33,211 nt of DNA. It comes from Patescibacteria group bacterium. Lineage in GTDB: Bacteria; Patescibacteriota; Patescibacteriia; 2-12-FULL-60-25. A program made the translations under genes and the position numbers. Every line of letters starts with the position of its first letter. The stretch's first letter is position 1. The notes beneath the pieces are model-generated. The model was not told where the DNA came from and ran no database searches. It worked only from the letters and a program-made list of their open reading frames with translations. Positions 7,815 to 31,027 of this stretch are shown here, piece after piece. The stretch spans positions 1 through 33,211 of the forward strand of contig JAGOTP010000013.1 of NCBI GenBank assembly GCA_018061755.1, read 5' to 3'.

Positions 7815-8990
7815 TTAGCCTTTCAATGCCTTTCTCTTGGTTTTCCACTCTTTGGACGCCTGGGTATATCCCCCATCCTGACCATCCAAGAAATGGATGT
7901 GACGGGCATCATAGCGCTGAACATAGCAGGTCATAACAGAAGCTGGACAAGCAGCGAGTCCAAAAATCAACATTCCAGATTGTTCAAATTTTTCTAGCGC
8001 TTCACGAAAACGCATGCGTTGCTCCATGGTGCCGGAGATAATGGTGAGCAAACTTCCGGCGACATGCAACGTATCCGTCGCGAGCAATAATTCCTCGAGG
8101 TATTTTTGTGGTTGAAAATTTCCAATTCCGATTGATGTCTTGAAAGAAGCGGTGCTCAAACAAGCACGAACGAATTCTTTTACAAAATTCAACGGTGGAC
8201 ACGCTCCCGTCGACAGAAGAGCTTTGCGTTGCAAATTCCTCGCCTCCAAACTTGGTGTGAGATTTTGGGTATTCACTGGATGACGAGTTTGATATTCGCC
8301 ATAGATTTCATCTAAGGCTTCCAAAACTCGTGCGTACACAGATGCTTGAGCGTTCGTGTCTGTGGCATCGATAATGGCACAAACGACTTCTTCTTTGGGT
8401 GATGTCGGTTGAATTTCTTGCCAGCGACACATGAGACCCGTCAGATCGACTTCTGTTGGTTGTTCTTCTTCTGGAAATTGGCTCGTTGCTGGATCTGCCT
8501 TGATCAAGGTGTCTGCCAACGCTAAACCGTCGCCCAAGAACACTGCTTGATCATAGCCAGGAGCAACGGCCCACTTCGCAATACGTAATTGTTTACCTAC
8601 TTTGAGTAACTCGGAAACGGAGACTGAACCGACACGCAAACGTAAGCCATAGGAAACGAAGGTATTCGCTCGAAGTGCCTGCAGAGCTAGAACGATCTCA
8701 TCGCGAACATCCTGAGGAACGAGCAGAGTTGCACCATCACCCCCATAGAAGAAAGCGATCTCGTAGCCACGTGTTTTCGTCACATTCAAGGCTGCTATAA
8801 CACAGCTCGCGGCGACGGTATTCAGGTCACGCCCACGACCTTCATTCACCGCCTGAGTAGACCCTTGGACGTCGGTTACAATCACCGCCCAGCTCGCTGG
8901 AACAGTCTGGAAAAAAGCTTCGTCCGACAAGAGTTGCCGTAAAGCACCATGATAGGCTGGCAAATCTGCGTAAAATCGAGTGCTTTCCAT
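7815..8990 (-). CDS. DUF3095 family protein, class III cyclase-like
   Basis: The 391-residue product matches the DUF3095 layout as I know it: an N-terminal FYADLPAY, then VIVTDVQGSTQAVNEGR, then AFFYGGDGATLLVP near residue 83. The TDVQGST and GGDGA segments resemble the metal- and nucleotide-binding loops of class III adenylate/guanylate cyclases. Members of this family are annotated as adenylate-cyclase-related, but as far as I know the reaction is not established. There is no signal peptide or TM helix, so it is probably cytosolic. The gene follows the terminator at 9012-9043 and is likely transcribed alone. If it is a true cyclase, the window shows no obvious receptor for its product. Confidence 0.85.
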   Translation of the reverse strand: MESTRFYADLPAYHGALRQLLSDEAFFQTVPASWAVIVTDVQGSTQAVNEGRGRDLNTVAASCVIAALNVTKTRGYEIAFFYGGDGATLLVPQDVRDEIVLALQALRANTFVSYGLRLRVGSVSVSELLKVGKQLRIAKWAVAPGYDQAVFLGDGLALADTLIKADPATSQFPEEEQPTEVDLTGLMCRWQEIQPTSPKEEVVCAIIDATDTNAQASVYARVLEALDEIYGEYQTRHPVNTQNLTPSLEARNLQRKALLSTGACPPLNFVKEFVRACLSTASFKTSIGIGNFQPQKYLEELLLATDTLHVAGSLLTIISGTMEQRMRFREALEKFEQSGMLIFGLAACPASVMTCYVQRYDARHIHFLDGQDGGYTQASKEWKTKRKALKG

Positions 8991-19476: not shown

Positions 19477-20313
19477 ATGGAAACATATAAAACCGCTATC
19501 GAATCACAACCGAGGCTGAGTATTTCTGAAAGAAAGGAGATTCTAGCTCCTGCTCATTTTGTGAGTGTTTTTCATGAAACCAGGACGAGTTCTTTACCCG
19601 GCATCGATAAAGATGGCTTAAAGGTTCATTCAGACATCAAGCATATTGGAGGCGCAGAGGGAATGATGAGGCGTAATGAACTGATTGATACATTTCGACC
19701 AGCGGCTGTGAGTGCCAAAGGCCTTAGCCGGAATAATATCTATGGATATCCATTTTTAGAGCATGGAAATGGTTTTCTTGGAGCAAATCAGCGTTTTATA
19801 AAGAGAGACGTAGAAACAATACGCGATGATTTTAAGCGAAAACAAGAACGTACTCCCGACATCCTGGAAAAACTACACGTCACAACATTCGATGAATACC
19901 TGGGGAAAATAACGGCGTCAGAATATTTGAAATCACAGTATCCTGGAGAAATACTCGAGATGAAAGTGGATCCCAAGCAGGCCTTTGTTGGTGATTTGGA
20001 GTATATTACAAAGATTGAAGACAGCAGAAGTCATGGTATGTCAGAAGACGAAGCGGTCGAATATCAAGCAAAAGAATACTGGAAACACCTGGTCTCACTC
20101 GAAGAGTTTCTCAAATGGTACAAAAAGCCCGAATGGGCAGAAGACGGACAGAGTATCAAAGATCCAGAGACGTACAAAGACGGTGCCCCGTTCGGAACGA
20201 TGGGCTTTTATCTGATCAAAGGAGCTCCGGATCATCTTCCTCGTCAGATTGATCAGCCAGAGATATTGATCCCTCAAGACATCCCGCAAGAATATATTAA
20301 GTTAGTTCAGTAG
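19477..20313 (+). CDS. Unknown protein, possible ADP-ribosyltransferase-like N terminus
   Basis: The 278-residue soluble product belongs to no family I can name. Residues 32-48 read FHETRTSSLPGIDKDGL. This is close to the H-x-T...NL-x-x-I-x-x-x-GL pattern near the NAD-binding site in ART-fold proteins such as DarT or RNA 2'-phosphotransferase. Later stretches include ILEMKVDPKQAFVGDLEY (about residues 160-177). No second or third ART catalytic motif is clear, so this is only a suggestion. A TATACT box lies 23 bases before the ATG without a Shine-Dalgarno sequence. It is a single-gene unit ending at the 20342-20379 hairpin and divergent from the DedA gene. Confidence 0.75.
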   Translation: METYKTAIESQPRLSISERKEILAPAHFVSVFHETRTSSLPGIDKDGLKVHSDIKHIGGAEGMMRRNELIDTFRPAAVSAKGLSRNNIYGYPFLEHGNGFLGANQRFIKRDVETIRDDFKRKQERTPDILEKLHVTTFDEYLGKITASEYLKSQYPGEILEMKVDPKQAFVGDLEYITKIEDSRSHGMSEDEAVEYQAKEYWKHLVSLEEFLKWYKKPEWAEDGQSIKDPETYKDGAPFGTMGFYLIKGAPDHLPRQIDQPEILIPQDIPQEYIKLVQ

Positions 20314-20398: not shown

Positions 20399-21046
20399 TC
20401 AGGGGGTCCATCCGCTGTGATCGATCAGCGTCACGGTAAACGCACGGGGACTGGTATCCGATAGCGCCTCGCGAATACAAAACCGCCAGCTATTGCTATG
20501 CGTTCCATTACGGGTATCCCCGACTCCATACCAATCAACCTCGTGGCGCTTCAGGGTTCGGTACCAGCTATAGAAGCCCTGCATATCCTTCGGAGTCGGT
20601 GTGCCGATGAATACGATGCGGAAACGGGCACGCATCCCCTTGGTCTCCGTCACGAACTCGAAATGTTTCCTCATGGTGAAGATCCCGGTTACCGCCGTAT
20701 CGAACCAGATCCAGACCCGCTGAGGCCCATTCGAGTGCAGGAGGTAATAGCCCTGATGGTCCTTCTTGAGGAGGAAGAGCAGCTCCTCCGGATGAGGCGC
20801 TGGTACGTACTTATATGACCTGACCAGGAGGCTGAGGGCCAGGTACAATAGAAAAAAACCAGCGATCAGCGGACGGTGGCTCACGGGCACATCCAACTCA
20901 TGGCAGGTGAAACGCCAGTTGAAATAGACAACCGCCAAACCACCAAAGAGCAACGAAATCGGCCCATACCACAGCTTCCACCTATCACGCTCGACCTGGG
21001 TAGAACGAAGCCATGGCAGATCATCGAAGATCGGTGGCCAGTTCAT
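20399..21046 (-). CDS. Hypothetical two-TM membrane protein
   Basis: The 215-residue product has two TM helices (about 28-44 and 60-78) and a soluble C-terminal domain of about 135 residues. That domain is rich in aromatic residues (WIWFDTAVTG, FYSWYRTLKRHEVDWYGVG). I know no family for it. AAGGAG lies nine bases before the ATG at 21046, so the start is good and, unlike many neighbours, has a ribosome binding site. It is a single-gene unit. Confidence 0.8.
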   Translation of the reverse strand: MNWPPIFDDLPWLRSTQVERDRWKLWYGPISLLFGGLAVVYFNWRFTCHELDVPVSHRPLIAGFFLLYLALSLLVRSYKYVPAPHPEELLFLLKKDHQGYYLLHSNGPQRVWIWFDTAVTGIFTMRKHFEFVTETKGMRARFRIVFIGTPTPKDMQGFYSWYRTLKRHEVDWYGVGDTRNGTHSNSWRFCIREALSDTSPRAFTVTLIDHSGWTP

Positions 21047-21749: not shown

Positions 21750-22493
21750 ATGGAATTGATCCAGCGTGTTTTGTATACCTACCGAAAGATGCATCTGCAC
21801 CAGCAGTTCTATAAACAGCTGTTCCTTGGAATAGGAATCTTGCTGGTTAGTTTCGTGGCGAATTACGGTGCAAATCTCTATGCCAGTCAACGTGAAGGGA
21901 ATGTCGTAAATGACATGATTTTGGATTTGCTGCCGGTGGTGAATTTGGATTACATCTATTTAGAAGGATTCCTAGTTTTCATTGTCTTTATCGTCATCTT
22001 AGGCCTCTATCGACCAAATCGCCTTCCCTTCATGTTAAAGACCATCGGCCTTTTCATTCTTATCCGCTCGTTTTTCATTACACTGACCCATCTTTCACTC
22101 CCTCTGCCGGGCCTTGAGGCTCTCAAATACGCTCCAACCGGCAGCATGGTGCAGAAATTTAGCTCCGGCAACGATCTGTTCTTCTCAGGCCATACCGGCC
22201 TCCCCTTTCTCATTTCCCTGATTTTTTGGAAAGATAAACTACTGCGTTACATTTTTCTTGGGATGTCTATCTTCTTTGGCATCGCCGTGTTATTTGCTCA
22301 TGTGCACTACTCGATCGACGTCTTTGCCGCCTTCTTCATAACTTACGCCATCTACCAGCTAGCTGTTTGGCTGTTCACGAAGGATCATCGCTTGTTCCAC
22401 TTGGTTCAGCGGGAGGTAAGTAAGCTAGCGCTGCGCGGAAAGAAGCGTGGCCAGCTCGCCGAGACATCCGATCAACCGACATCACATTCTTGA
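21750..22493 (+). CDS. PAP2_C family membrane phosphatase (sphingomyelin-synthase-like)
   Basis: The 247-residue protein has about six TM helices (roughly 20-45, 65-85, 92-115, 145-163, 168-188 and 192-210). Between them are FSSGNDLFFSGHTGLPFL and AHVHYSIDVFAAFFITY. The SGHT histidine and the H-Y-S-I-D pair give the H-H-D triad of the PAP2_C branch, which includes sphingomyelin synthase-like enzymes. It probably cleaves or transfers a phosphate or phospho-head group on a lipid at the outer membrane face. The basic C-terminal tail overlaps, tail to tail, 119 bases of the M48-ABC1 gene. Patescibacteria usually cannot make their own lipids, so lipid remodelling is a plausible role. Confidence 0.87.
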   Translation: MELIQRVLYTYRKMHLHQQFYKQLFLGIGILLVSFVANYGANLYASQREGNVVNDMILDLLPVVNLDYIYLEGFLVFIVFIVILGLYRPNRLPFMLKTIGLFILIRSFFITLTHLSLPLPGLEALKYAPTGSMVQKFSSGNDLFFSGHTGLPFLISLIFWKDKLLRYIFLGMSIFFGIAVLFAHVHYSIDVFAAFFITYAIYQLAVWLFTKDHRLFHLVQREVSKLALRGKKRGQLAETSDQPTSHS

Positions 22494-25400
22494 AGAGCAG
22501 GGTCAGCTTGAGCGGGACTTCGACACCAACCGCCCGAAGACGCGCCATGACTTGGCGAAGACTGGTTCTGTCGTTCTGTTCCAAAAGGCCGGCCAGAGAT
22601 GTCCAAAAATCCTCGTCTTGCTTAGAGGCGGCAAGATCGTGAGCAAAATAGGTACGTAAATGACGAATACGATCTTCTGTCGACTCTCCGTCTTGCGTCA
22701 AACCCAAGACCAAAGCCTGATCTTTTGCATCTAATTCAAGATAATAAGAGCGATCGATCATAGCGACCGAGTCCTGACCGCCTCGCTGAAACAAAAGATA
22801 GTTTCCCGGATGAACGTCCGAATGCATGACCCCATCGACCAACTGATGCGCGAACTTTTTTGCTATCACAGCCATGGCTTGAGGCAAATCTTCTTGACCA
22901 GGATCAGCGAATCGTCGATTCACTGTCACGCCATCGACCACTTGCTCTTCAAGTTTTATATGCTTATTGGCCTTGGCACCTCCTGGAACGACAAACGATT
23001 CCGGAATAGACAGGCTGTAGCGGACACCGGGAATACGGAAGCCGTCATGTGTCTCTCTGAAGGCAGGGTCGAGTTCGGCGTAGCGCGTATCGTTCACGTC
23101 TGCCTGAATCCAAGCCGAAATATCCTGCAAAGCCAGCTTAGCTGGGAGATAACGATCGGGATTCCGCTCGACTAAAGCGTCGGCCACTTTTTCCAGTGAC
23201 CTTTCGATCGTCGTCGAAACGAATTCAGCGTTGGGAGCGAGTACCTTCAAGGCGACACGAATTGGGTCAGGACGAGACGGGTGCAGTACGTCGGCATCAT
23301 ACGCAGACATCAAGGAACCACCACCCAGGCGACGACCAAAGCGCACGATTTGTAAGCCAGGCGCTCGCTTGCGGGCTGTTTGTTCAGCGGTGAGTTTTGA
23401 CTGACCACGAACATTGTCGTTGGCATTTAAAAAGGCTTCTTCCAATTCAGGCGGCAAGTCTTCGACATACTGACCCAAGACTTGAAGTAAACGGACTCCA
23501 TCCGCGCCTAAAGATTCGGCGATACGCACGATCATCGTCTCCAATCTAGGGAGTGCAGCGGTCACTTGATCGGGCTTCTTGTCATACGATATACCGAGCG
23601 TGCGCAAATGGCGACGATAAGCGTGATCAGATGGGGCAAAAAACTCATCATCTTTACGCGAGGTAGCTCCTTGCATGACCATGACTGTAGCCAGTGTCTT
23701 TTTGACGGTATATTTATTTGTATATAGTGGAGAGAGGATATCTTCCCAAGCAGTTGGCGTCGACGGCGTGCGCAGGATGCGTTCCTGTAAGAAAGGGGCG
23801 ATTGCAAAAAACAACACATCCGTTTCCACTACTTCGGCTACTACGTCGAGGACTTCTTTTACGGTCTCTAGAAGCTCCGGTGGCGAGTGACGTGCATCAA
23901 CGGCAGAATCCAAAAGATAGGCAAACAGGCGTTTGCGGTCAGCCTTCGTATGCAAAAGACCTTGCTCACCAATCAAGAGTTTGCGCACGAGCCCATGACG
24001 CACTAGATCATCCGCATGCTCAAGAGATCCAAGAAAAGCATCTGTTTGCAAAACAGCGACTTCATCTTGTCGATCAGGTTTCTGATTGAATACTTCATCG
24101 CGCAAGACCTGAAAGATATCTGTTTTTAGCTCTTTATCCGAAATGTTATAGCTATATAACATCTTGAGTAAACCAAGCGAATCTTTCCGTTTTTCAAGTC
24201 GCTCGAGCAAGGCATAGATGCCCACAGACTCTGATGACAGATCCTGCTCTAAGCGACGAACTAAGATATTTCGTACGGCCGCAATCTGGTCCGGCTGGTC
24301 TACTCGCTCGTCCAAGAAACGGGAGCGAAGATCTGGTAAGGCAACTGGACGGACATGTGGATTTTGGTAGAGCAGATCAATCCCCTCCTGTACCGTGGCT
24401 CCAGGGCGATCCAATTCAAGCCTGACAAGCTGCTCCACAACCCGTGCTCGTAGCAACGGATCCTTCATACGACTCGTCAAACTCAACAAAATGGCACGAT
24501 CTTCTGACCTGGTCAGATCGGTCACACATTCCTCGATAATTGTACCTACAAACTGATCATGCTCACTATCTAACGCTCCGAAGGCGATGAGATTTCCTAC
24601 CGGCAGGAATGATCGACGACGGAATACCAACTCATCCAGTCTGCGTAGTTGATCCAAAACCTCTTTCTGTTTTGAAGGGAGCGGAATAGTTCCTACAGCA
24701 TTCGCCAAAGCGTCTTGGGCGCATTTGAGAAAATTTAGAACCGGATCATGCTCTATTCGTTTTTCAAGAATACTGTCCTGTTTCACTTCGTTTCTCTGTT
24801 GAGCATCGGTGTCAGACACAACTTCAAAGAGCTTCAAAGCGGCTGTATATGACACGGGGCTATCCTTCACCAACGCATCGAGGAACCTTGTGTCTGTGAG
24901 TATTCTTGAAACAACGCTGCCGGGAGCCTGGAGCGAACAACGCACTAGCTCAAACTTGGCCTCTTCACGATCTGCTGGGAGCCAAGCAACTTGATCTCCA
25001 GCATTCAAGAGATAGGTAAAAGCCAGAACGTAGATCTTTGTGAAATCCGCTGGTAGGTCAATTCGTACTTGAGGCTCAGACGCCCTAAGCTCATCCTGAA
25101 GCCTATTCAAGGCTTCGCAAAACTGACTGAAGGCATCAGGTGTCTGAAAAACCGTTTTAAATGATAGCTCATCAAGTAGCATGTCATAGAATACGCGGTT
25201 TGTCCTCTCTTCCGGATTAGTTGGATGAGAGCATGCAACCTTGAATACATGCTTCGTCCAATCTGATCTTTCGGCGATGTCAGACAAGTCTCTGCTACGA
25301 AGGAAAAGTGTATCGTGAATTGTTTCAGCGGAAACGGATGAATTGCCAACTGTACCGTCGGGGAGAGTAAATACACGCGAAGACTCATGAGCAAAAATGG

Positions 25401-27084
25401 CCGAGTCTGCGAAATATCCGAACAGCGGAACTGGCGCACCTCTCAAGATAGGGTGCGTAGATTGATAGAGCAGAGCACACAACGCGTCTTCCAAATTACC
25501 ACCCAATATTGCGCCCATCTCACTTGCTTGATCTGCAGTAAACTCTTCTTTGAAAGCTCCCTTTTTATAGTAATGCTGCCGCTGAATGGCATGATGAATT
25601 CGTGCAGGCTGTGGCGGGAGTCCACTTGAACGCAACAAGTCTTGTAAACGCAAAACTGCTCGAACCACAGGAACAGCCGTATCTTTTGTCTTAATATTTA
25701 CCAATAATTCATCCAAAATGGTATCCGAAACAACAAAGCCAGCGGCTCCAGTCAAGGAATGTTCACGCATGAGCACTCCCGCTTGCTCAAGGAAAGGCGT
25801 TGAACCAGCAAGATATTGATCGACATCGAATGCTCCATTCTCTTCATAGAGACTGGCTTCATTCGCCGTGCGGAGAACTGCTCCGATAAAGTTAGACACA
25901 CCCATTCCATTCGGCAAACAAACGCCTAATCCTTCAAACGTTTCCGGCACAAGAATCTGTCGCACCTCTTCCAGCTCAGCCTCCGTTTCAACACTCGCTA
26001 ACCCATCAAGAACCGCTTGGAAAGGGCCATCTTCTATCTCAACCTCTCTGACTTCTGCTATTGATTCCAGTAAGACACGGAGCAGAACATCTTGTTGAAG
26101 CTTGCTCAGGTCGGGCGATCTTTCCTCAACCCTCTGTCTGAGCAACTCAATACCTACTTCATACCCTTCACCTACCACTGGGACGATCTGTTCCTCAACA
26201 GGTTCCGACAACTCTTTTTTCTCCTCTTCTTCTTTTTGACGATCTATTGGCAGACCGTTTACGGCAACACGATCGTCTTTTCGCCACTTACGTAAACAAA
26301 CCAAGAGCTCAAGCGTCGTTTTGTCGGCGAGCAATCGTTCAGCCTCTTCCCGTTCGCAATCACCTGAATCTGGAAACCGGGGAGGAAGCTCGGCTGCAGC
26401 AAAAGCTCGTGTTTCAGCACTCAGTGGCGTCCTCGTTTCAAAATCAGATTCGAAATCATAGGCCTGAGTAGCCAGTCCGGCATTCACGATACGCTCGATT
26501 TCCTTGCCATGCACAACACCAGATTCAGTCTGTCCAGATTGGATACGCCAAGCCTCGAACTTCTGCATGAGCGTACGCAAAGCCGCCGGATGAGTTCCCG
26601 CTTCATCACCTTCGATAATTCCGCCGATATCCGCTTCCCACTCACCAAAGCGTTTTTTTCCAAATAACTCCAATGTTTTCCCCATCGTCTTCTGACCTGT
26701 ACGCAATTCTTCTTGGAGAAGCGTAAATTCTTGGATGTGTCGCCGACGATGGTGAGCAAGCTCATGAGCCAGCACCACTCGCAACTCCTGGGTATCTACA
26801 AGACGCAACAGACCACGATTCACGACAATCGTTCCATTTGGCAAGACAAAGGCATTTGGACTATCTGCATCAAGACTGATCCTGACCTGCGTTTCGTGAG
26901 ATCCTGGAAGAGCGGTTAAGAGGTTTTGAGCTTCTTGTGTAACAGGATGATGGTCGGGCAACAGGCCGAACTCGGCGGCATACAACGCCTCTGCCGCACG
27001 GGCTTGGCGGATAAGATCCGGACGAAAAGGCGGGCGCTCTCGAGGCGCTTTCCGTTCTACAGACACTGGTTGTTCAACGGACAT
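22375..27084 (-). CDS. M48 metalloprotease fused to ABC1/UbiB-like kinase
   Basis: The 1569-residue protein joins three parts. Residues about 20-180 are an M48 zinc peptidase: AHELAHHRRRH gives HExxH (His107, Glu108, His111), and GEWEADIGG gives the third ligand Glu148. Residues about 290-1240 are long helical segments that look like a HEAT/ARM-type scaffold. From about 1245 comes an ABC1/UbiB-type kinase: glycine loop LGGGSLMSAYDAD, Lys1280 in VALKVL, catalytic Asp1423 and Asn1428 in HSDVHPGNYLL, and a metal-binding MID with Asp1444. There is no signal peptide or TM helix, so it is likely cytosolic, unlike most M48 proteases. An extended -10 (27100-27108) lies 15 bases before the ATG. The 3' end overlaps the PAP2_C gene by 119 bases. 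The ABC1 KxGQ signature was not found. Confidence 0.88.
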   Translation of the reverse strand: MSVEQPVSVERKAPRERPPFRPDLIRQARAAEALYAAEFGLLPDHHPVTQEAQNLLTALPGSHETQVRISLDADSPNAFVLPNGTIVVNRGLLRLVDTQELRVVLAHELAHHRRRHIQEFTLLQEELRTGQKTMGKTLELFGKKRFGEWEADIGGIIEGDEAGTHPAALRTLMQKFEAWRIQSGQTESGVVHGKEIERIVNAGLATQAYDFESDFETRTPLSAETRAFAAAELPPRFPDSGDCEREEAERLLADKTTLELLVCLRKWRKDDRVAVNGLPIDRQKEEEEKKELSEPVEEQIVPVVGEGYEVGIELLRQRVEERSPDLSKLQQDVLLRVLLESIAEVREVEIEDGPFQAVLDGLASVETEAELEEVRQILVPETFEGLGVCLPNGMGVSNFIGAVLRTANEASLYEENGAFDVDQYLAGSTPFLEQAGVLMREHSLTGAAGFVVSDTILDELLVNIKTKDTAVPVVRAVLRLQDLLRSSGLPPQPARIHHAIQRQHYYKKGAFKEEFTADQASEMGAILGGNLEDALCALLYQSTHPILRGAPVPLFGYFADSAIFAHESSRVFTLPDGTVGNSSVSAETIHDTLFLRSRDLSDIAERSDWTKHVFKVACSHPTNPEERTNRVFYDMLLDELSFKTVFQTPDAFSQFCEALNRLQDELRASEPQVRIDLPADFTKIYVLAFTYLLNAGDQVAWLPADREEAKFELVRCSLQAPGSVVSRILTDTRFLDALVKDSPVSYTAALKLFEVVSDTDAQQRNEVKQDSILEKRIEHDPVLNFLKCAQDALANAVGTIPLPSKQKEVLDQLRRLDELVFRRRSFLPVGNLIAFGALDSEHDQFVGTIIEECVTDLTRSEDRAILLSLTSRMKDPLLRARVVEQLVRLELDRPGATVQEGIDLLYQNPHVRPVALPDLRSRFLDERVDQPDQIAAVRNILVRRLEQDLSSESVGIYALLERLEKRKDSLGLLKMLYSYNISDKELKTDIFQVLRDEVFNQKPDRQDEVAVLQTDAFLGSLEHADDLVRHGLVRKLLIGEQGLLHTKADRKRLFAYLLDSAVDARHSPPELLETVKEVLDVVAEVVETDVLFFAIAPFLQERILRTPSTPTAWEDILSPLYTNKYTVKKTLATVMVMQGATSRKDDEFFAPSDHAYRRHLRTLGISYDKKPDQVTAALPRLETMIVRIAESLGADGVRLLQVLGQYVEDLPPELEEAFLNANDNVRGQSKLTAEQTARKRAPGLQIVRFGRRLGGGSLMSAYDADVLHPSRPDPIRVALKVLAPNAEFVSTTIERSLEKVADALVERNPDRYLPAKLALQDISAWIQADVNDTRYAELDPAFRETHDGFRIPGVRYSLSIPESFVVPGGAKANKHIKLEEQVVDGVTVNRRFADPGQEDLPQAMAVIAKKFAHQLVDGVMHSDVHPGNYLLFQRGGQDSVAMIDRSYYLELDAKDQALVLGLTQDGESTEDRIRHLRTYFAHDLAASKQDEDFWTSLAGLLEQNDRTSLRQVMARLRAVGVEVPLKLTLLFKNVMSVDRMSRRAGHASFRAALAYLPPAEPSGTSDDPS

Positions 27085-27188: not shown

Positions 27189-30100
27189 TTAAGGCAACAA
27201 GTAGCCCATCACGCGTACGACTGACCACTGGAATGGAGTTTGTGGAGTCGTGCGGAAGACGCGACGGAAATCGGTAATACCTTGTCGTTCATCTGCGAGA
27301 TTACGTGGGAAGCGTAGGCGATACATGAGTGTATTCCAGGCCAAATTCTCGGTTTGATTTTGGAAGTTAGGAGCATGACCAAACAGGGTGCGGAAGGTGA
27401 CCAGAGCGCGAGGAACCATAGATCGTTCGTAGGCCAGACTGCGGGTGCGAGGAATTTCACCGCGGGCAATACGCTCCAAGTCATCAACCGGGATGTCTGT
27501 TCGACGCATCGTTTCCTGAGCATCGCGTAGGACAGCGGCACGTTCACCAGCGCCCAAGGCACGAGAGGTTGGATCCGTTCCCTGTTCCAGGAAGTTTTCC
27601 AAGCGTTCGGCTTGTGTCAGCGTTGAAACGGGCGAAGAAGTCGCTGGATCAGCTACAACCGTAGTTGGATTCGTAATAGGTGTGCTCACGGGGTTGGTCG
27701 TAACAGGCGTAGTTGGCGCATTGAAGAAGACTTGGATGCCGCCACCTCCCCCACCGCCACCAACAGCTCCACCGCCTCCGCCAGTGGTAACGGTTGTCGC
27801 GCAGGCAGTCGTCGTGACTGTACTCGCCGAAGAAGTAGCCGCCTCCGTTCCGGACAGGTTACGAGCAACAGCGACAAACGCGTAGCTCGTTCCACAATTT
27901 AGGTTGGAGACTGTTGGCGTGGCCCAAGTGGAGGACGTTTGCCAAACGGATGTCGTGGTAGCAACCCCAGCAGCATCAAGATAGGCACTCAAGGTTGAGC
28001 TGTAGATGGCGTACTGAACTGACGTGGCATTCCCATTCGTGTCAAGCGTGACAGACAACGAAGTACGAGACAAAGCCGACAAACTTGGTGCGCCCGCGGC
28101 GGCGGCTGGCAAGACGAATTGAGATGAAGTGGCGTAGTAAGACGTGCCATTGAGGTTCACAGCCGCTACACGGAATTCGTAGGTTTCACCTGGGGTGAGA
28201 CTGGTAATAGCCGTGGACGTTGCCTCCGTCACGCTCGACACTGTTCCGGGATAAGTCTGACCAGTAAGTGGTCGGCGATAGTCGACTGAGAATGATTCTT
28301 CGTCATCAGAGTTATCCGTCCAGAGGAAGGTGGCGCCCGTCGTAGTCAGGCTGGTACTAGTAGCAGCCGAAGGAGCTGTTGACGTCCCAGAGCTCAACAA
28401 GACCAACGTGACGAGTTGATTGCGGGAAGACAAGCTCACAGATGTAGAAGAAGCACTCCGATTGGTCGCAACAGCTGCGAACGAATAAGGATTGTAACCT
28501 CCGTTCGTCAACGCTGAACTGACGGAGGTAATCGTGTGTGCCGGCAAGCTCAGATAAGAAGTGTACCCACTGTCATCGGTCGTACCAAGCGCCGTCTCAT
28601 TTGGAATAAGACTGGTAGATGTGGCTGAAGCTCCAGAAATACCAGAACCGCCAGAACTCCGAGTCAAGACGCGTGCTTTATACTTCACCAAGAAACCACC
28701 ACGAGGTAACTCGACCGAGCTGGAAGCACGAGTGAAGCTAACGTTATCAATGGTGTTGGTAGCACTAGCAGTAGACTGAAGATCGTAGTAGGTACTGCTT
28801 TGAATGACGCTGTCTGAAACAGTGCTACTCGCGGTTGTACCGGTAAACAGAACTCCAACCGCGTTAGCCGTCGACGTTACGCCCGAAATCGTCCAACCAG
28901 AGGCATTCGCCAAACGCACACCCGCATACAAAGGCAGATCATCATCGAGCACAGGCGGCGTTGTGACACTACCCAACAATGTCGCCCCAGCCGAAGCCAC
29001 TGCCGCACTATTATAAGTATAGACACCAGCTGATGGAGTAAATACGTCTTCGATAAAACTGTCGACCGACAGTGGAATTTCAAGGGCGCAAATTCCTGTT
29101 AACGTCATACCGCTGCTAGCATATTCATCCGGAACCAACATGGTTAGCTTTGATCCAAAGACATCAATCAAGGCAACATTGAGTGACCCCGTTCCATTAG
29201 ATGTGTAGTCCGTGATATCAAAGTTATCACTAGTAACTGGACTAAGACCACACGATGCGCTGGTTAGTAGCAGCATTGTTTCTGGATCAATATCCACGGG
29301 AACAACTGCATCATCATAGTCTGAGCCACCGAAGGAATATAACAATTTCGTCACATCATAGGTACGTGAACCACTCCCCCCACCGGTCACACGAACTTCA
29401 CTCAAGGTCGACGTACTGATATTTGAGAAACGAACGGCATCCGCACCAGAAGCGGCAGTAATAATGGTTGAATTTCCGGCACCCGTAATCGAAATACTAC
29501 TCGTGGCGTAGGTCGAGGAGACGGAAAAGCCTGTGTATGATCCAGCCGCCAAGGTTACCGTATCACCAGAACGAATAAATTGATTGATATCCCCTGTCGA
29601 AGTCGCATCAACCGTCGAATAATCGATTGTACCACTATCGTCTAAGCTGATGGTTGAACGACGAGCATCCGTTGTAGCTCCGATGTCCCGCGTTCCATCC
29701 GCGTCCAAATAGTTGCTAAAAGCAGCTGTCTGTAGATCATTCGTCTGATCTACATCAAGGACCTTCAAAAAAGGATAGGCTGTACGTGAATTCGCACCAC
29801 TCACATTCGTCGCCGACACACCAATTACTCGTTTTACGACCATATCGAACCCATAGGCACCGTTCCAATCATTGGATTGAACGAAATAGTTGCTAGAAGA
29901 TAAACTGTACTCGATGGCAGACCTGAGAGCCGTTGTCGAAGCAGCGTTGTACAATAAGTTATAGGCAGCCGTAATTTCGATCAGAATATCGGCACGGTTG
30001 GCCGTCGAAGCAACAGCCACCGGTACGCCGTTAGAGCAGTTCCCTCGCTGACGAATCGTATTATGCGAAATCGTCGTCGTAGTGTTCCAAGGACCCGTGG

Positions 30101-30968
30101 TCGAACCAGTAACCTTTATACCGTTACAGGCAGCCGTAGACGAAGGAGTATCGATAAAGTTACCACCGATGTAGTTTGTCCCGCTGGCATAACTGAACAA
30201 AGAAGCAGTCAACGAATCAGAGGTGAACTCGACTGGATAATTGATAGTATTCGTGGCGAACGTAATATTCCAACCATCCAAGGTCACCAAACGCGTCGCG
30301 CTCCCTCCTGTGGCGGAACGATTAGCAAACGTGTTACCTGAGATGACCAGCTGGCTAGAACTAGCATGTAGAGCGAATATACCCGTATTTTGACCACTCA
30401 CCATGCGACCATAGAACGTATTGTTCTGAATCGTTCCGTTCGTCGTTGTAGCATTTATGGTAAACAAGTTGATGTTTGTATTGTTTAAAACTGTGAAGTC
30501 TTGAGCACCGTAAGCGAAACTGATCGTACTAGTAACCGTGGTCGAAAAGGTGTTATCGACAATGCGGATCCCACGTGGCGGATTCTCACCCAAATCTGCG
30601 GTAAAGATCTGAACGTTACCCAAGGTACAGCCTTGAATGGTTGAGCTGGTTGAAAGGTTGATTATGTTGTTTCCAGTCGGACTCGTCTGACCAATCGTCG
30701 CTCCGCCGGTACAGGTCAGGGTCGAACTTACGCTTGGGAATGAAATGGCAAATGATTCCGCCGCAGCGCTGTAGGGACTCCCGCCGCCACCCTGAACCTG
30801 GTAGATATCTCCCTCGGCTGGAGCATCCCCCATAGCCGCCGAGATGGTCGTGTAATCACAACCTGAGGCACAAATGGTCTTGGTTGCCGCTTGAACGCCA
30901 GTTGTCGCGATCAAGGCAGCGCAACTTATGATCAAACAAAGAGCTATTTTGAGGAACGGTCGAGGCAT
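27189..30968 (-). CDS. Large secreted beta-helix/Fn3 surface protein
   Basis: The 1259-residue product begins with a signal peptide (FLKIALCLIISCAALIATTG, cleavage near VQAA at about residue 28). Residues about 45-600 hold repeated short Asn/Thr/Ser-rich turns (VQIFTAD, FTVLNNTNINLF, GTIQNNTFYG) typical of a right-handed parallel beta-helix. A fibronectin type III unit follows near residues 850-960 (TTTGATFLWTDNSDDEESF ... GETYEFRVAAVNLNGTSYY). A second, weaker one follows it. A glycine run starts at 1063, and a charged helical C-terminal domain covers about 1117-1259 (FRTLFGHAPNFQNQTENLAW ... DFRRVFRTTPQTP). I chose the ATG at 30968 because it opens the signal peptide. It is likely surface-exposed and may bind polysaccharide or host cells. 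Confidence 0.88.
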   Translation of the reverse strand: MPRPFLKIALCLIISCAALIATTGVQAATKTICASGCDYTTISAAMGDAPAEGDIYQVQGGGGSPYSAAAESFAISFPSVSSTLTCTGGATIGQTSPTGNNIINLSTSSTIQGCTLGNVQIFTADLGENPPRGIRIVDNTFSTTVTSTISFAYGAQDFTVLNNTNINLFTINATTTNGTIQNNTFYGRMVSGQNTGIFALHASSSQLVISGNTFANRSATGGSATRLVTLDGWNITFATNTINYPVEFTSDSLTASLFSYASGTNYIGGNFIDTPSSTAACNGIKVTGSTTGPWNTTTTISHNTIRQRGNCSNGVPVAVASTANRADILIEITAAYNLLYNAASTTALRSAIEYSLSSSNYFVQSNDWNGAYGFDMVVKRVIGVSATNVSGANSRTAYPFLKVLDVDQTNDLQTAAFSNYLDADGTRDIGATTDARRSTISLDDSGTIDYSTVDATSTGDINQFIRSGDTVTLAAGSYTGFSVSSTYATSSISITGAGNSTIITAASGADAVRFSNISTSTLSEVRVTGGGSGSRTYDVTKLLYSFGGSDYDDAVVPVDIDPETMLLLTSASCGLSPVTSDNFDITDYTSNGTGSLNVALIDVFGSKLTMLVPDEYASSGMTLTGICALEIPLSVDSFIEDVFTPSAGVYTYNSAAVASAGATLLGSVTTPPVLDDDLPLYAGVRLANASGWTISGVTSTANAVGVLFTGTTASSTVSDSVIQSSTYYDLQSTASATNTIDNVSFTRASSSVELPRGGFLVKYKARVLTRSSGGSGISGASATSTSLIPNETALGTTDDSGYTSYLSLPAHTITSVSSALTNGGYNPYSFAAVATNRSASSTSVSLSSRNQLVTLVLLSSGTSTAPSAATSTSLTTTGATFLWTDNSDDEESFSVDYRRPLTGQTYPGTVSSVTEATSTAITSLTPGETYEFRVAAVNLNGTSYYATSSQFVLPAAAAGAPSLSALSRTSLSVTLDTNGNATSVQYAIYSSTLSAYLDAAGVATTTSVWQTSSTWATPTVSNLNCGTSYAFVAVARNLSGTEAATSSASTVTTTACATTVTTGGGGGAVGGGGGGGGIQVFFNAPTTPVTTNPVSTPITNPTTVVADPATSSPVSTLTQAERLENFLEQGTDPTSRALGAGERAAVLRDAQETMRRTDIPVDDLERIARGEIPRTRSLAYERSMVPRALVTFRTLFGHAPNFQNQTENLAWNTLMYRLRFPRNLADERQGITDFRRVFRTTPQTPFQWSVVRVMGYLLP

Positions 30969-31004
30969 AAAGAAGCAAAGGAATAAGTATCTATATCGAG
31001 GTGA

Positions 31005-31013
31005 AGTATACCA
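31005..31013 (-). promoter_or_regulatory. Extended -10 promoter TGGTATACT
   Basis: On the - strand TGGTATACT lies 36 bases before the ATG at 30968, just past the comF stop. It gives the surface protein gene a promoter separate from the upstream comF and VirB4 genes. No Shine-Dalgarno sequence follows in the leader. Confidence 0.45.
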
Positions 31014-31027
31014 CACGTACCAAACAA

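Follow-up and report, generated by a model that had tools for sequence, protein, structure and literature searches.

The window analyzed here, a 33,211-nucleotide stretch of DNA from a Patescibacteria group bacterium (assembly GCA_018061755.1, contig JAGOTP010000013.1), encodes a protein in which an M48 zinc protease domain is joined through a long helical middle to a UbiB/ABC1-like kinase domain. The fusion is a real family, rare and long conserved, within the class of Patescibacteria to which Ca. Uhrbacteria belongs. Read from the sequence, the protein has this three-part architecture, an M48 active site and plug that appear intact, and the retained HxD, Asn and Asp residues of a nucleotide-binding kinase fold. 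The mechanism that we consider most likely, and hold only tentatively, is that of a soluble M48 protease gated by the nucleotide-binding UbiB-like domain.

UbiB-family kinases are present in most bacterial groups and in all eukaryotes, and their substrate and activity are unsettled. The fusion family provides natural variants of the Ala-rich loop, the KxGQ motif and the alpha-C Glu on soluble proteins that have no membrane segment. The positions that vary are those that mutagenesis showed to restrain COQ8, or positions that pair with them. Through the fusion, an M48 protease could also come under the direct control of ATP. The gene is rare but conserved in genomes of about 1 Mb, for which 4.7 kb is a costly commitment.

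Integrity and distribution of the fusion family

The fusion gene begins with ATG and runs for 1569 codons without an internal stop, and its position-specific codon GC is even along the whole frame. In the encoded protein (P0001; source genome G000, 1.15 Mb in 37 contigs), the Pfam family PF01435 (Peptidase_M48) matched residues 53-124 with 56.9 bits against a cut-off of 20.3 (E=3.1e-15). PF03109 (ABC1) matched residues 1273-1458 at E=0.0019, and its 17.8 bits fall short of the 22.9-bit cut-off. The ABC1 assignment of this copy is nevertheless secured, because a paralogue scored 55 bits, all five family members match in Pfam, and TIGR01982, hhalign and Foldseek, described below, lead to the same family. 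A preliminary description of this DNA had proposed a one-chain M48 and ABC1/UbiB fusion, and the intact reading frame, the two Pfam families and four homologues bear it out. Its coordinates and residue numbers (Glu148, Lys1280, Asp1423, Asn1428 and Asp1444) were right; the strand, which is minus, had been left out.

The paralogue lies in the same genome on contig C3 (L007:5479-9969, minus strand), has the same build in 1496 residues, and scores above both cut-offs, with 21.9 bits for M48 in addition to the ABC1 score given above. A search of 41 genomes at the family level added a member of 1458 residues from a Ca. Uhrbacteria genome of the same family (G027, JAIOPK010000006.1); the single TGA in the match to this copy is its terminal stop and not an internal one. 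Two further members, of 1470 and 1476 residues, came from two other families (genomes G080 and G373) when 381 genomes were sampled from the class. No extra member was found in 380 genomes of the phylum or in the families or orders of the member genomes. The total is five full-length members of 1458-1569 residues in four genomes and three families, two of them in the window's genome, and all five match both PF01435 and PF03109. The preliminary description had suggested looking for the two families in one protein across Patescibacteria; they occur together in these four genomes. A pattern scan of GTDB genome contigs recovered only the Uhrbacteria copy and so under-reports the family relative to the searches with hidden Markov models.

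Trees of four segments (M48, two pieces of the middle, and the kinase) agreed on the unrooted topology ((C3 paralogue, G027), (G080, G373), P0001). The C3 paralogue thus pairs with the Uhrbacteria copy, and P0001 forms a separate line. The shared topology indicates that the parts were already joined when these lineages separated and have been inherited as a unit. Divergence is deep: pairwise identity is 23-37% for the M48 domain and 24-46% for the kinase, and only 12-21% for residues 206-860 of the middle. That two genes had been joined by assembly or frameshift, a concern raised in the preliminary description, is ruled out for all practical purposes: neither event was seen, five full-length copies in four genomes exclude an assembly join, and the congruent segment trees and the even codon-position GC point the same way.

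No signal peptide was found in the window protein, and a 19-residue Kyte-Doolittle scan gave no convincing transmembrane segment in any of the five fusions. The highest mean was 1.79 in the window protein and at most 1.54 in the other four; a stand-alone UbiB protein of the same class (L032) reaches 2.71 in its C-terminal membrane segment. The protein is soluble and presumably cytosolic, and the earlier claim that it lacks a signal peptide and transmembrane helices agrees with these values. We found no published account of an M48-UbiB fusion in the literature searched, the coverage of which was incomplete, and this is consistent with the preliminary view that the fusion had not been described. 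As far as that literature shows, the novelty is one of combination, both component families being known.

Table 1. Features of the fusion gene, with positions in the window and residue numbers of the window protein.
Feature	Position	Strand	Basis
Fusion gene: M48 protease, helical middle, UbiB/ABC1-like kinase; 1569 aa	22375..27084	minus	Single open reading frame; PF01435 and PF03109 matches; four full-length homologues
M48 protease domain, residues ~22-205	26470..27021	minus	PF01435; PDB profile matches 3c37 and BepA; Foldseek BepA
HExxH zinc motif HELAH, residues 107-111	26752..26766	minus	H107, E108, H111 invariant in 5/5
Glu148, third zinc ligand (ExxAD, residues 148-152)	26641..26643	minus	Invariant in 5/5; aligns with R..E..AD of 3c37
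HGx4R, residues 192-198, variant of the M48 HPx4R active-site plug	26491..26511	minus	H192, G193, R198 invariant in 5/5
Helical middle, residues ~206-1180	23545..26469	minus	AlphaFold2 all-helical, low pLDDT; Pfam and repeats negative
UbiB/ABC1-like kinase domain with UbiB-type N-terminal extension, residues ~1181-1569	22378..23544	minus	PF03109, TIGR01982; hhalign; Foldseek
RxLQ, residues 1198-1201, in place of UbiB KxGQ	23482..23493	minus	R1198, L1200, Q1201 invariant in 5/5; aligned to UbiB K-F-G-Q
GGGS, residues 1254-1257, in place of the UbiB Ala-rich AAAS loop	23314..23325	minus	Invariant in 5/5
Beta-3 Lys1280	23245..23247	minus	Lys in 3/5, Arg in 2/5 members, those of G080 and G373 (alignment)
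Tyr1335 at the alpha-C Glu position	23080..23082	minus	Tyr in window protein, Phe in other four (alignment)
Catalytic loop D1423-x-H-x-G-N1428	22801..22818	minus	D, H, G, N invariant in 5/5
D1444-R1445, DRx instead of DFG	22750..22755	minus	Invariant in 5/5

The protease and kinase-like domains

The M48 active site and its plug appear intact. All five members keep E148, A151 and D152 in the third-ligand region, and the plug motif retains its His and Arg at M48 spacing with the Pro replaced by an invariant Gly. Profile comparison places 3c37 and BepA closest among solved structures, and BepA was also the first Foldseek match of the N-terminal model, in which the M48 core is usable at about residues 41-110 (AlphaFold2 predicted local distance difference test score, pLDDT, of 67-83 per block of ten). 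In BepA, the His of the HPx4R plug is the fourth zinc ligand and movement of the plug is required for activity (PMC7950410). The fusion has the HExxH motif, the Glu third ligand and the His-x5-Arg plug in common with the soluble M48 proteins BepA, 3c37, LoiP and YcaL. It resembles BepA further in that a helical body, made of tetratricopeptide repeats (TPR) in BepA, follows the protease domain. BepA is a periplasmic protein of about 490 residues, whereas the fusion has no signal peptide, carries HGx4R rather than HPx4R, has a helical part of ~950 residues that gives no TPR match, and adds a kinase-like domain. The window's genome encodes another M48 protease, HtpX (contig C6, next to a lemA-like gene), which differs as an ordinary membrane protein of 299 residues. 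The invariance of HExxH, Glu148, Asp152 and HGx4R in proteins whose middle is so divergent argues for selection on protease activity.

The C-terminal domain groups with UbiB by several measures. TIGR01982 (UbiB) matched all five members, the window protein far below the equivalog cut-off. Alignment with hhalign to stand-alone UbiB proteins of the same class covered 340 columns (98.8%, E=1e-16), and the eleven best PDB matches in Foldseek were all UbiB-family proteins (Rv3197, COQ8A/ADCK3 and MSMEG_1954). Much of the kinase is usable in the AlphaFold2 model (about residues 1231-1560, pLDDT 53-89). The kinase-like fold, the N-terminal extension, the HxDxHxGN loop and the Asp of the DFG position are common to the fusion and to UbiB, COQ8 (ADCK3) and Rv3197 (MABP-1). 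The fusion departs from these proteins in its RxLQ, GGGS, aromatic alpha-C residue and DRx, in its protease, and in having no C-terminal membrane segment. Three stand-alone ABC1/UbiB proteins (L032, L034 and L035) share the superfamily domain and the class with the fusion, but they carry canonical KFGQ, A[AS]AS and DFG or DLG motifs in ~560-590 residues, end in a hydrophobic segment and have no protease.

Every UbiB hallmark that we checked was altered in all five members, from KxGQ to RxLQ, from AAAS to GGGS, from the alpha-C Glu to Tyr or Phe, and from DFG to DRx, the last reading DR[STN] across the family. The kinase-like residues that are invariant in all five are GGGS, Asp1423, His1425, Gly1427, Asn1428 and Asp1444. 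Catalytic residues proper are kept throughout at just three sites, the Asp of HxD, the Asn and the Asp of the DFG position. The equivalence of the motifs was read off two alignments rather than an experimental structure. The preliminary description had taken both catalytic sites to be complete. This stands for the protease, in which HExxH, Glu148 and the HGx4R variant of the plug are invariant, and fails for the kinase with its changed hallmarks. It had also asked whether the key residues are kept in relatives, and here Asp1423, Asn1428 and Asp1444 are retained, while two members have Arg for Lys1280 and all five an aromatic residue for the alpha-C Glu.

The activity of ADCK3 is restrained by its Ala-rich loop and its KxGQ extension, and a single Ala-to-Gly change in the loop shifts the preference from ADP to ATP and enables autophosphorylation (PMC4718504; PMC7263595). 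With the Ala-rich loop swapped for a Gly-rich one and KxGQ modified, ATP handling by the fusion should therefore differ from that of quinone-associated UbiB proteins. The UbiB-like domain probably binds ATP, as judged from its conserved residues, and phosphate transfer, if any, may not be the same in members with Lys as in those with Arg.

One could instead read the domain as a pseudokinase or an ATPase that only folds, scaffolds or senses nucleotide, so that the protein would be a large M48 protease with a substrate-binding body, a cytosolic counterpart of BepA. We regard this as unlikely, though as a serious contender. The loss of the alpha-C Glu in all five members, the Lys-to-Arg change in two, the DRx motif, the fully invariant M48 residues and the kinship to 3c37 and BepA as nearest solved M48 relatives speak for it. 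However, the HxD Asp, the metal-binding Asn and Asp and the Gly-rich loop have not changed in any of the highly divergent copies, a constancy not usually seen when a domain is dead, and an alpha-C Glu-to-Phe change in the CAK-chloro and HSK2 kinase-like families has been described as a functional replacement (PMC1821047).

The same residues bear on a scheme that we doubt, in which the domain is an active protein kinase and the middle holds one substrate on which kinase and protease act in turn, a target being, for example, phosphorylated and then cut. The Gly-rich loop in place of the Ala-rich one suggests such activity, as do the invariant HxD, Asn and DFG-position Asp, and A339G/A197G in COQ8A/Coq8 enables autophosphorylation (PMC7263595; PMC4718504). 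The aromatic residue at the alpha-C position and the Arg in two members argue against it, and protein-kinase activity in trans has not been demonstrated for UbiB, Coq8 or COQ8A (PMC7263595).

The helical middle and proposed nucleotide gating

Between the two domains, about 950 residues are predicted to be entirely helical by AlphaFold2, which was run on both halves of the protein, with pLDDT mostly below 50; the model of this part is unusable. No Pfam domain was found in the middle, a self-profile comparison for internal repeats of the TPR or HEAT kind was not significant (E about 0.1), and the N-terminal and C-terminal halves showed no mutual similarity. The helical character claimed for the middle in the preliminary description thus agrees with the prediction, which is itself of low confidence. 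It is plausible that the middle is a substrate-holding alpha-solenoid.

The preliminary description had suggested that the kinase may regulate the protease or that the two may share a target, and both ideas are kept here as hypotheses. In the gating mechanism that we favor, the protease at rest would be plugged, as in BepA, and the helical scaffold would bind a substrate or partner. By binding or hydrolysing nucleotide, or by transferring a phosphoryl group, the kinase-like domain would then move the scaffold and release the plug, giving a protease gated by ATP or by phosphorylation. The fold matches that we count for this mechanism are BepA, in which an M48 domain is followed by a helical TPR domain, and Rv3197 and COQ8A. 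A stronger version seems rather improbable to us, namely that a UbiB-family kinase freed of its inhibitory Ala-rich loop has become a true protein kinase that controls the M48 domain of the same chain by phosphorylation or ATP turnover. If true, the fusion would be a cytosolic metalloprotease gated by a kinase on the same chain, and the literature searched describes no bacterial enzyme of this kind.

Several observations weigh against gating. The plug Pro is replaced by Gly in all five members. Contact between the protease and the kinase is uncertain in the models, as the middle between them is modelled at low confidence. With the alpha-C Glu lost throughout and the beta-3 Lys replaced by Arg in two members, phosphoryl transfer may be weak or absent. 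Finally, no neighborhood was common to the five loci compared, and no conserved neighbor names a substrate.

Gene neighborhoods and the quinone question

In the window, the gene 104 nt upstream of the fusion gene encodes a secreted beta-helix/fibronectin type III protein. It lies on the same strand at 27189-31016 and encodes 1275 residues with a signal-peptide-like start and beta-helix-like and fibronectin type III stretches. A gene for a TraG/VirB4-type ATPase is found a few genes upstream of the fusion gene. Immediately flanking the C3 paralogue are recJ and an RNase H gene, at distances of 9 and 14 nt. The Uhrbacteria copy is preceded, with a 4-nt overlap, by a diacylglycerol kinase (DAGK)-like gene, a match below the Pfam cut-off, and a bactofilin gene lies beyond; the G080 copy adjoins a DUF218-like gene.

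These loci bear on an alternative that we hold to be decidedly improbable, that the fusion is an interaction protein of presumably host-attached cells, exported, injected or used in conflict, with both domains attacking host targets. The very patchy spread (four fusion genomes among the 381 class genomes sampled), the deep divergence of the middle, the large multidomain build and the nearby TraG/VirB4-type gene would suit such a role. The protein has no signal peptide, however, one copy lies between recJ and the RNase H gene, and no secretion gene recurs at all the loci read. Searches of viral contigs and of phage and plasmid collections gave no match, and the origin as a phage or plasmid gene was rejected on these grounds; a defence system was likewise rejected, as matches to the PADLOC defence-system models were at noise level only.

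The preliminary description had also connected the kinase with quinone biology. This link found no support. The motifs that define UbiB are altered, and the single UbiA-family gene of the genome, UbiA being the only quinone gene sought, lies beside genes for geranylgeranyl diphosphate synthase, phytoene synthase and a phytoene desaturase-like protein. These form an operon-like carotenoid set (L045:324-4708, contig C26), in which the UbiA-family protein is possibly of the lycopene elongase type; the names other than UbiA come from reading the sequences. Carotenoid synthesis is thus apparent in this genome, and a quinone role is not supported, the UbiA homologue being part of the carotenoid operon. 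No stand-alone canonical ABC1 gene scored above threshold in the window's genome. The other ABC1 match there is an ordinary serine/threonine kinase on contig C33 (L002, 13889-14110); it has a C-terminal transmembrane segment and reads like a protein of a larger-genome bacterium, and the contig may be a contaminant.

A role in membrane lipids or isoprenoids like that of UbiB and COQ8, for instance in regulating isoprenoid enzymes or lipid mobilisation while the protease removes damaged enzymes, appears very improbable. Kinship to UbiB/COQ8, the carotenoid operon with its UbiA-family gene, and the DAGK-like gene that precedes and overlaps one homologue are consistent with it. Yet the fusion proteins lack the motifs typical of UbiB and its C-terminal membrane segment, their genes are not linked in position to isoprenoid genes, and the DAGK-like gene scores below its Pfam cut-off.

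Three further genomes of the class have a canonical stand-alone UbiB-like gene whose neighbor reads as lgt, for prolipoprotein diacylglyceryl transferase (L032:3824-6373, L034:5699-8255 and L035:3239-5715). This recurrent pair may hint at the role of UbiB in these bacteria. Elsewhere in the window, 7815-8990 encodes a full-length DUF3095 protein (PF11294, 317 bits). Close to the fusion gene, 19477-20313 encodes a protein of 278 residues that has no Pfam match, as is also the case for 20399-21046.

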